DNA of 64,000 bases from Comamonas terrae. GTDB lineage: Bacteria; Pseudomonadota; Gammaproteobacteria; Burkholderiales; Burkholderiaceae_C. Below the pieces are notes generated by a model. That model did no database searches. It saw only the letters and a list, made by a program, of their open reading frames with translations, and was not told where the DNA came from. This document shows positions 33,633 through 36,546 of this stretch, piece by piece (position 1 is the stretch's first letter; each line of letters begins with the position of its first letter). Location of the stretch: assembly GCF_001544075.1 (NCBI RefSeq), contig NZ_BCNT01000004.1, forward strand, positions 62,001 through 126,000, given 5' to 3'. The position numbers were made by a program, and so were the translations under genes.

Positions 33633-34826
33633 ATGAACATCATCCGCTTCTCCGATCTGTGCGCCCAGGGCAAGGCGCAAGGCCAGCGCGTCTTCATCCG
33701 CTCCGACCTCAACGTGCCGCTCAACGACGCGGGCGAGATCACCGAGGACACGCGCGTGCGCGCCTCCGTGCCGGCGATTGAAATGGCGCTCAAGGCCGGC
33801 GCCGCCGTGATGGTGACCAGCCACCTGGGCCGCCCCACGGAGGGCGAATTCAGGCCCGAGGATTCGCTGGCCCCCGTGGCCAGGCGCCTGTCGGAGCTGC
33901 TGGGCCGCGACGTGCCCCTGGTCGCCAACTGGGTGGACGGCGTCCAGGTCGAACCCGGCCAGGTCGTGCTGCTGGAAAACTGCCGAGTGAACGTGGGCGA
34001 AAAGAAGAACAAGGAAGAGCTGGCCCGCAAGCTGGCTGCCCTGTGCGACATCTATGTGAACGACGCCTTCGGCACGGCACACCGCGCCGAGGGCACGACC
34101 TACGGCATCGCCCAGTTCGCGCCCGTGGCCTGCGCCGGCCCGCTGCTGTCTGCCGAGATTGACGCCATCACCAAGGCCCTGGCGGCGCCCGCACGCCCGC
34201 TGGCCGCCATCGTGGCCGGCTCCAAGGTCTCGACCAAGCTGACCATTCTGCAATCGCTGTCCAGGAACGTGGACCAGCTCATCGTGGGCGGCGGCATTGC
34301 CAACACCTTCATGCTGGCCGCGGGCCTGAAGATCGGCAAGTCCCTGGCCGAACCCGACCTGGTCGGCGAAGCCAAGGCCGTGATCGAAGCCATGGCCGCG
34401 CGCGGCGCCGATGTGCCCGTGCCCACCGACGTGGTCACCGCCAAGGCCTTTGCCGCCGATGCCCCCGCCACCGTGAAGAAGGCCACCGAAATCGAGGACG
34501 ACGACATGATCCTCGACATCGGCCCCGAGACCGCCGCCAGGCTGGCCGAGCAGCTCCGCAAGGCCGGCACCATCGTCTGGAACGGCCCCGTGGGCGTGTT
34601 CGAGTTCGACCAGTTCGCCAACGGCACCCGGGTGATCGCCCAGGCGATTGCCGAATCGCCCGCCTTCAGCATCGCCGGCGGCGGCGACACGCTGGCGGCC
34701 ATCGCCAAATACGGCATCGAGGACAAGGTGGGCTATATCTCCACCGGCGGCGGCGCCTTCCTGGAAGTGCTGGAAGGCAAGACCCTGCCGGCTTTCGAGA
34801 TCCTCGAGAAGCGCGCCAGCGCTTGA
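33633..34826 (+). CDS. pgk: Phosphoglycerate kinase
   Basis: A 397-residue glycolytic and gluconeogenic enzyme transferring phosphate between 1,3-bisphosphoglycerate and ADP. It has the N-terminal substrate motif [20 protein letters not shown], the hinge, and the nucleotide-binding C-domain with [11 protein letters not shown] and GGGDTLAA followed by STGGGAFLE. The start MNIIRFSDL at 33633 fits the family; the longer upstream frame is not conserved-looking. It is monocistronic with its own terminator. Confidence 0.97.
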
Positions 34827-34854
34827 TGGTTAAACGCTGACAGCTATCAAAACA

Positions 34855-34886
34855 AAAGCTCGCACGAAGCATCTTGCGGGCTTTTT
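34855..34886 (+). terminator. Rho-independent terminator of pgk
   Basis: AAAGCTCGCA pairs with TGCGGGCTTT (one G-T wobble) around a 10-nt loop and ends in T5, 29 bp after the stop codon. Confidence 0.82.
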
Positions 34887-34972
34887 GCTGGGTCGCGTTC
34901 AGAGCAAACGCATCTAAATCTCAAGAACAACAAGGCAGTGCCTGGGCATGCTTGTGTGTGCGCCACCAGCGG

Positions 34973-35614
34973 CAGAGGCCGGGTCTCGCCCCGGCAGGCG
35001 AGATCCTTTCTTGCTGCACGGCAAGAAAGGATCCAAAGAAACGTGCCCCGTTGCCTGCGTCCCTGCGCTTCGCTCCGGGCAAACCTGCGTCACCCGCTTC
35101 CGTCTGCGGTGCGCCCCAACTCACTGCGCGCTGCGCGCTTCGTTCAGACACACGGGCGCAAGTCAGTGGACGATGCAACGCTGTCCTGCGGCAGCGTTGC
35201 CCGCAGCCTGAAGCGGGTGCCGCAGGCGCAGACACAAGGGGGAATGCGGACGGCCGGCCAGCGTCGTGGCGAAAGGCGATCCGCGCAGCGGCAAAGCGCA
35301 GGCCAGGCCGAGCGCAGCGATGGCCCGCATGGCTGTTCCCCCTTGTGCCCGCGTCTGCGCCGCAATGCTTGCGGGGTGGCGGCTGCACCGCAGAGTGCAG
35401 CCGCTTCGTGATCTGACTCGCCGCCGTTTGCCCGAGTAGAGCGCGCAGCGCGGCGCGAGTTGGGCGGCGCACCCCGCAAGCGTTGTGGCGCAGCTTGCCC
35501 CGTAGCGCAGCGAAGGGGTCGCGGGCAGTTGGGGGCGTGTTCTTGGCCTACCTTATTGCACGAGCAAGAAGGTAGGTCGCCCGCCGGGGCGAGTCCCGGC
35601 CTCTGTCTCTAAAA
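34973..35614. repeat. 640-bp imperfect palindrome: two inverted copies of a hairpin-rich non-coding unit
   Basis: The ends are imperfect inverted repeats: left CAGAGGCCGGGTCTCGCCCC, right (reverse strand) CAGAGGCCGGGACTCGCCCC. Similarity continues inward through CGCTTCGCT/CGCTGCGCT, GTGCGCC...CCAACTC, GCGCTGCGCGC, AGTCAG and GCGCAGAC...ACAAGGGGG to a centre near 35293. Each arm has hairpins in matching places. Hairpin 1 is at 35002-35033 and 35546-35577, and hairpin 2 at 35175-35200 and 35379-35404. The paired sequences differ between arms, yet both still pair. Open frames inside look like low-complexity shadows. It occupies the gap between pgk and the EamA gene (34887-35667), where no gene is supported. 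Confidence 0.8.
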
Positions 35615-35667
35615 CCGGCAAAAAGGGCTGATTGAGATGCGACTGTCCTGGTCCTACGGGCTTTTTG

Positions 35668-36546
35668 CTACCTGCCCTTCGGCCACAACACCGAGGCAAT
35701 GGCCCCCACCATCAGCACCACGGCCGTCCAGTCCTGCCAGTGCAGCACCTCGCCCAGCCACCAGGCGCCCACGAACACGCCCAGCACGGGAATCATCATC
35801 ACGCTCAGCGTGGAGGCCACGGGCGGCAGGCTGCGCGCCAGGAAGAACCACACGGCCTGGGCAAAGCCCAGCACCAGCACGCCGTTGAAGGCGATGGCGG
35901 CCATGGCGCTGCGGTCGGGCGCATGCCACTGGTCGCGCTCGAACACCACGGCCAGCACGGTCAGCACCAGCGTGGTCAGCGCAATCATCCACAGCGACAG
36001 CGTCATCAGCGGCACGGGCGACTCGGCACGGCGCAGCAGCTGCGTGCCCCAGGCCCAGCCGGCCGCGGCGATCAGCATCAGCAGCACGCCCATCGGCTTG
36101 CTGCCCAGCGCGCCCACTTCGTGCCACAGCAGCAGCAGCACGCCCAGGAAGGCCGCGCCCACGCCCGCCCAGGCGCGCGCACCCAGCCTGTCATGGAAGA
36201 ACAGGCTGCCGAAGACCGCCGAGAAGATGGGCATGGTGTAGCCCAGGATGGCCGCGCGGCCGCTGGACAGCGTGGGAATGGCCACGATGATCAGGCTGTG
36301 CCACAGCACCATGTTGAACAGCGTGAGCTTGAGCAGCTGGCCCCAGTAGGAGCGCGGAACGGTCAGCGGCAGGCGCCGGCTGGCCACGAACACCGCCAGG
36401 ATGGGCAGGCCTATCCACATGGAGACCATGCGGAAGGTCAGCGGCGGAAAGTGCTGCACGCCCAGCTTCATCACGGGCCAGTTCAGGCCCCAGACCAGGG
36501 TGAGCAATACGAGGAGAACAAGCTGTTTGGGCGTAAATGAAGGCAT
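35668..36546 (-). CDS. EamA/DMT family transporter
   Basis: A 292-residue inner-membrane protein with ten predicted helices in two EamA halves. The family opening [16 protein letters not shown] is at residues 15-30, and [16 protein letters not shown] marks the end of the first half. The second half ends [23 protein letters not shown] members export metabolites or amino acids; the substrate is not predictable. The start MPSFTPKQ at 36546 directly precedes helix 1. It is divergent from pyrF with about 93 bp between starts. Confidence 0.9.

Follow-up and report, generated by a model that had tools for sequence, protein, structure and literature searches.

An imperfect palindrome beside pgk in Comamonas terrae as a probable empty copy of a dispersed, transposase-less inverted-repeat cassette

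We analysed a 64,000-nucleotide stretch of the Comamonas terrae genome (contig NZ_BCNT01000004.1, positions 62,001 to 126,000; hereafter the window). The noncoding element at 34973-35614 is, on balance, probably an empty copy of a dispersed inverted-repeat mobile cassette that has no transposase and whose folded ends would serve an enzyme supplied in trans. We present below the palindrome, the anatomy of its ends, their pattern of substitution, the spread of related copies and the genes that some of them enclose.

Results

The palindrome and its boundaries

The initial annotation described a 640-bp imperfect palindrome, and the alignment bears this out. The half 34973-35292 aligned with the reverse complement of 35293-35614 at a local score of 134, compared with a mean of 22.0 and a maximum of 30 in 200 dinucleotide shuffles. 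The top half-versus-half score among the non-overlapping 642-bp tiles of the window was 36. The outer arms (34968-35015 and 35563-35610) are 83% complementary across 48 nt, and matched blocks continue inward as far as 35221-35244 and 35336-35359. When folded as single-stranded DNA, the 642 nt gave -248.8 kcal/mol (z -13.5, 20 shuffles). The main parts of the palindrome are as follows.

34973..35614, no strand assigned: whole imperfect palindrome, empty form; shared right sequence to about 35642
35084..35226, + strand: internal hairpin of the left half; arms 35084-35109 and 35201-35226, 88%
35355..35493, - strand: internal hairpin of the right half; arms 35355-35378 and 35470-35493, 92%
35221..35359, no strand assigned: central hairpin; arms 35221-35244 and 35336-35359, 88%

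The palindrome is located between the convergent pgk and EamA-type transporter genes, both named as in the initial annotation. The view that it holds no credible gene was also confirmed, as the five ORFs that overlap it gave nothing near the Pfam cut-off (best E 0.085). The Rfam covariance models had no match in the window from 34800 to 35800 up to an E of 1. The proposed right edge at 35614 needs a correction; by eye, the identity shared with another copy (L002) extends about 28 bp further, to about 35642. In addition, 35584-35630 recurs in the own genome as a blastn fragment (G000:C20:49438-49484), a right-boundary match that stands alone, with no further element part reported there. A second common Comamonas repeat, with a core like GCGCTAGCAGCTATCAAAA, was seen at window 34835-34855, just 3' of pgk. 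Repeats of the GCGCTAGCAGCTATCAAAA type were also found in the flanks of many element copies and in the spacers between tandem elements.

Each end and its stems

The covariance model R1 was built from 23 seed ends, both window ends included, and contains only the stems S1 and S3 and a small hairpin, S5. Its alignment holds 140 ends from 76 sources; the stems S2 and S4 are absent from the model. The parts of the two window ends are listed here.

34978..35090, + strand: left end core; R1, 116.8 bits, itself among the 23 R1 seeds
35488..35600, - strand: right end core; R1, 111.8 bits, itself an R1 seed
34978..34995, + strand: S1, left end; GCCGGG 34978-34983 pairs with CCCGGC 34990-34995, letters checked, covariation
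34986..35001, + strand: S2, left end; TCGC 34986-34989 in the S1 loop pairs with GCGA 34998-35001 (pseudoknot 1)
35002..35033, + strand: S3, left end; 35002-35014 pairs with 35021-35033, perfect 13 bp
35016..35046, + strand: S4, left end; loop GCACG 35016-35020 pairs with CGTGC 35042-35046 (pseudoknot 2)
35034-35041, + strand: left-end linker CAAAGAAA; mirror strand, possible third strand
35577..35600, - strand: S1 and S2, right end; CCCGGC 35595-35600 with GCCGGG 35583-35588, GCGA 35589-35592 with TCGC 35577-35580
35536..35576, - strand: S3, right end; 35547-35559 pairs with 35564-35576, 12 of 13 pairs, one mismatch
35536..35576, - strand: S4, right end, short; ACG 35560-35562 pairs with CGT 35536-35538, three free pairs

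All four stems are present in the left end of the window element. In the right end, a fourth S4 pair would require the closing pair of S3 to open. Throughout the aligned ends, S2 joins the S1 loop to the letters after S1, and S4 joins the S3 loop to the letters after S3; S1 interlocks with S2 and S3 with S4, which gives two pseudoknots per end. Judged from these alignments, each end keeps four covarying stems interlocked in this manner. The R1 stems (S1, S3 and S5) showed 347 two-sided cells in 139 distinct rows, with two-sided changes at 20 of 22 pairs, and 96.9% of their cells pair. None of 500 shuffles, which treat the rows as independent whatever their relatedness, approached 347, and nor did any slide.

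The figures for S2, S4 and the linker mirror come from the 140 rows that remain of 255 pooled rows once the 115 whose loci had been chosen by an exact end motif are set aside; their shuffles likewise disregard relatedness among the rows. S2 was complete in 102 of the 140 rows (shuffle mean 45.7, maximum 61) and in 30 of 62 distinct rows (shuffles 9.0, maximum 17). A separate count of 170 ends found 642 of 680 S2 cells to be Watson-Crick. S4 had at least four pairs in 108 of 127 distinct rows (shuffles 46.0, maximum 58). A purine-rich linker sits between S3 and S4 in the aligned ends and matched the mirror of S3 at a mean of 6.59 letters (shuffles 5.80, sd 0.07), as expected of a third strand; the direct-repeat control stayed inside its shuffles, at 5.69 (mean 5.56, maximum 5.76). 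When read outward, the linker is pyrimidine-rich and runs parallel to the purine arm, and thus suits T.A-T and C+.G-C triples. It could, by its sequence, form a triplex with S3.

Substitution pattern in the ends

The ends showed 344 two-sided changes, with 23 wobbles when read inward and 48 when read outward. In the motif-selected set of ends, the values were 241 two-sided changes and 42 and 47 wobbles. As a control, the predicted consensus pairs of 4.5S RNA were scored alike in 30 genomes, the best-scoring among 117 from the order, which gave 144 wobble cells, 49 two-sided changes and 6 A-C cells. Since wobbles are avoided on both strands of the ends, we took the pattern as selection on DNA pairing. 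By comparison with this one control RNA, chosen by score, selection looks to act at the DNA level.

Copies in the own genome and in Comamonas

The own genome has five near-full copies by blastn, including that of the window, and several partial ones; the other four near-full copies are 77-81% identical to the window copy. R1 found 14 ends there, ten of them in five inward pairs. In a blastn scan of 61 genomes, with nine or fewer candidates scored per genome, matches were obtained in all 37 genomes of the genus (own included) and in none of the 24 genomes of other families. The more sensitive R1 matched five of those 24 (G040, G050, G057, G059 and G060). Second copies thus exist, and no coding conservation was found.

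A tree of 46 Comamonas copies, read without support values, places four of the five own copies together. Clustering by genome was clear in G001, G003 and G023, where copies resembled one another more than those of other genomes; it was weak or absent in G002, G013, G021 and G028, a group in which some copies share one site across several species. One of the own copies reaches 83% identity with a copy from elsewhere, in another genome, compared with an own mean of 74.5%. For the 46 copies, the left and right ends of one copy were 0.692 alike, versus 0.690 between copies. Tandem head-to-tail copies with spacers of about 92-148 bp were observed at L098, L100, L101, L102, L105 and L106 (G001, G016, G035 and G002).

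Among 47 full-length Comamonas copies, 44 could be placed: 26 between convergent, 16 between tandem and 2 between divergent genes, compared with 12, 24 and 13, respectively, for other gaps; some of the 44 are orthologous or in one array, so this context test is not fully independent. Gene orientation was determined with a simple home-made codon scorer seeded with four window genes. A coding-like ORF was present inside two of the 44 placed copies.

Occupancy of sites

A match to pgk was found in 50 other genomes, and at the 29 other Comamonas loci examined from among these no element lay within 1.5 kb of pgk. The gene order beside pgk differs in other species, and these loci therefore provide no clean empty allele. 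Inspection by eye revealed no target-site duplication flanking five own copies, whose boundaries are uncertain. None of three contiguous candidates obtained from joined flanks was a clean empty site; two keep remnants of one or both outer ends with the interior gone, and one was too diverged. The remnant sites fit deletion of an unstable palindrome. The two sites with remnants are L290 and L292 (G071 and G030). A Sideroxydans site is occupied in G369, retains the left end in G597 and is free of the element in G604, where the junction was unreadable. Dispersal, patchy occupancy, partial clustering by genome and the existence of relatives with cargo speak for the earlier suggestion of a non-autonomous mobile element, though no transposition was seen.

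Wider distribution

The initial annotation had placed similar sequences in Burkholderiales and Xanthomonadales, of which the former was confirmed. In a sample of the family, 114 of 250 genomes had matches, as did 75 of 141 genera (two candidates scored per genome); of 300 genomes sampled in the order, 101 had an R1 match with E <= 1e-4 (12 candidates scored each). One exact end variant occurs in at least 119 stretches. Among the 80 matches listed for this variant were Variovorax, Polaromonas, Acidovorax, Thiobacillus, Dechloromonas and Vogesella, together with the gammaproteobacterial Methylomonas, Methylobacter and Rheinheimera; Xanthomonadales were absent from those 80.

The same two plasmid records match two own copies, one match being on the C. 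odontotermitis plasmid NZ_CP083452.1. One of the two annotated plasmid copies lies between tandem genes and the other between convergent genes. The window copy had no match in phage records. An exact end variant matched one viral contig (L421 10242-10273), which may mean that an end is carried by a phage or prophage. No description of the element family was found in the literature searched.

End pairs and the genes between them

The arrangement of ends was determined with R1 in 12 genomes, namely the own genome, G001 and ten chosen for having matches. Of 45 end neighbours no more than 6 kb apart, 34 faced inward, 8 outward and 3 in the same direction; 68 of the 115 ends were in inward pairs and 47 in none. 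The inward pairs fell into 24 that span 428-684 bp and 10 of 1147-4575 bp. Among the eight outward pairs, seven were 92-116 bp apart, four of them within G001 arrays and the other three (L229, L230 and L257) in G324 and G370. These three, 92-114 bp apart and without a near partner, resemble a junction of joined cassette ends. Genome G499 has 16 ends and no inward pair.

The gene-bearing forms that were read come from five genomes and a single Methylomonas record. One G482 interior encodes an Mrr_cat nuclease, another a TIR-domain (TIR_2) protein together with a PIN-domain protein, and two are without a Pfam match. The two arms within each G482 cassette are 94-99% identical, which indicates that those cassettes are recent. 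One G573 interior encodes an AAA ATPase (AAA_15) resembling OLD/GajA, and another has no Pfam match; the same is true of the G369 and G060 interiors. In G001, a 1812-bp interior had nothing above the Pfam cut-off, and a 4575-bp one encodes a NERD-UvrD helicase and a radical SAM protein. Overlapping parts of the element flank the 4575-bp interior on each side, and the arrangement may be one of genes framed by two copies. In the Methylomonas record (L342), a DUF5677 protein is encoded between ends spanning 1.5 kb. One locus was left out of the count (L325; ends about 1.9 kb apart), its interior being taken for nif-cluster genes from the sequence.

Overall, 5 of the 11 gene-bearing interiors had a Pfam match above the cut-off and 6 did not. 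Four of the five matched interiors look defence-related. With PADLOC, the AAA ATPase matched 128 models, and the Mrr_cat, PIN and DUF5677 proteins matched none; we regard such matches as resemblances rather than proof of a defence function. No recombinase or transposase was found by Pfam among the ORFs of the 11 interiors.

Discussion

A cassette with folded ends

In the reading that we favour, two inverted ends bound an interior that is either short (unit of 428-684 bp) or, in some of the genomes, taken up by one or a few genes. Whenever the locus becomes single-stranded, in replication, repair or transfer, each end would fold into a compact knot, perhaps with a T.A-T and C+.G-C triplex. A structure-specific enzyme encoded elsewhere, most likely of the HUH type or a tyrosine recombinase, would recognise the shape more than the sequence and move or copy the segment between two ends. 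The cargo would be whatever sits between the ends, the window copy being one without cargo. Copies would mostly persist 3' of genes, the place of least harm. Site occupancy differs between species, and the pairing is kept as Watson-Crick on both strands.

More tentatively, the element may represent a new class of gene-cassette mobility, in which ends made of a single-stranded DNA knot (two pseudoknots and a triplex) are read by an unknown recombinase. Such a system, possible but less probable than the cassette reading itself, would run parallel to integrons and shuffle genes of defence and of toxin-antitoxin systems within Betaproteobacteria and some Gammaproteobacteria. What would be new relative to the known transposase-less inverted-repeat elements is the knotted ends conserved in shape; whether the element should count as a separate class depends on what its enzyme is. 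If this reading is true, a widespread repeat with junk-like low-complexity frames is a cassette system able to carry defence genes, and it offers a natural case of interlocked folded DNA under selection. It would also give a direct handle on the enzyme, as the protein that binds the folded end by shape, and R1 could serve to search large genome collections for such cassettes and for new genes that they enclose.

Alternative explanations

The most credible of the alternatives, which we nevertheless consider unlikely, is a dispersed structured RNA, with the ends serving as terminators or stability elements within the 3' portions of the flanking mRNAs and doubled, in opposite orientations, for convergent genes. 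The strong covarying pseudoknots and the 3'-side placement (26 of 44 copies convergent) agree with it, as do the somewhat commoner wobbles in the outward reading (48 versus 23) and an outward-read pyrimidine-rich linker that would suit a telomerase-type triplex. A structured RNA was also among the options of the initial annotation; the structure was upheld, but the substitution pattern opposes RNA on either strand, with 344 two-sided changes and few wobbles in the ends versus 144 wobbles and 49 two-sided changes in 4.5S RNA of the same order. Moreover, there is no Rfam match, and a terminator is not expected as a two-ended unit enclosing genes. Next in plausibility, and likewise unlikely, is a relic, that is, an old inverted-repeat transposon family that today has no enzyme and spreads only through homologous recombination and gene conversion. 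Partial copies, copies with a deleted middle, the failure to find an enzyme in the interiors scanned and two ends of one copy that resemble each other as little as ends from different copies do (0.692 versus 0.690) are what a relic would leave; pairing kept through 347 two-sided cells and the recent G482 cassettes, with arms 94-99% identical, are not.

We rate lower again, as improbable, a REP- or REPIN-like product of a RAYT (a Y1 HUH transposase) encoded once per genome. GTAG lies 5' of the hairpin in many outward-read ends, but it is not invariant; it belongs to S3 and varies with its partner. The own genome has one Y1_Tnp match (L142, G000:C3:564363-564653), and 47 of 53 Comamonas genomes have matches, most of them one; however, the elements are also carried by G012 and G029 (99% complete), which have no Y1_Tnp match. 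REP units are described as 20-40 bp long with an unpaired GTAG or CGTC tag and as intergenic and placed on the 3' side, and some TIR families of TIRYT transposases as self-complementary (PMC3733652). So described, REPs, REPINs and TIRYT TIR repeats resemble our element in being palindromic, intergenic and present as pairs in opposite orientation. As a difference from REPs, none of the 30 Y1_Tnp loci searched was flanked by the element within 1.5 kb on each side, and Y1_Tnp/RAYT was not supported as the partner. A 20-40 bp hairpin with a conserved, unpaired GTAG or CGTC beside it is likewise absent from the ends. A site for chromosome architecture or for a nucleoid protein is very improbable; the element is palindromic, repeated and intergenic, but genes inside some copies and freely changing stem letters are unsuited to a sequence-specific site.

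Relation to known systems

The terminal inverted repeats, short length, lack of a transposase gene and multiple dispersed copies are those of MITE-type elements. Mobile insertion cassettes hold a passenger gene between inverted ends without a transposase, the ends being derived from a known IS or Tn. The cassette proposed here shares the passenger gene, the inverted ends and the lack of a transposase, but no IS or Tn parent was found among the ORFs of the 11 gene-bearing interiors. In telomerase-type triplex pseudoknots and H-DNA mirror repeats, a pyrimidine linker mirrors a pyrimidine-purine stem. The linker described here does the same, with a triplex that would be its counterpart, but it is found in bacterial DNA, at each end of a dispersed element. 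TIMEs are described as Tn3-derived inverted-repeat miniature elements of 262 bp when empty that mobilise DNA between two copies and have 38-bp Tn3-family ends and 5-6 bp duplications (PMC4133298). Our element is, like these, a transposase-less inverted-repeat element that is miniature when empty; unlike TIMEs as so described, it has end cores of about 110 bp whose letters change while the pairing is kept, and no duplication was seen.

The cassettes also invite comparison with those of integrons. Integron attC sites are conserved in structure more than in sequence, fold at the DNA level and accompany single genes, with toxin-antitoxin or defence-like cargo, and our element and its relatives appear alike in each of these respects. 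They differ in that each unit has a pair of inverted ends where an integron cassette has one attC, and in being dispersed. A search of the window element for the attC core found one GTTRRRY/RYYYAAC site, away from the ends. The integron integrase was not supported as the partner, none being above the cut-off in the own genome. An integron integrase above the cut-off was observed in 11 of 53 Comamonas genomes, namely G002, G005, G012, G014, G019, G021, G024, G027, G036, G070 and G072.
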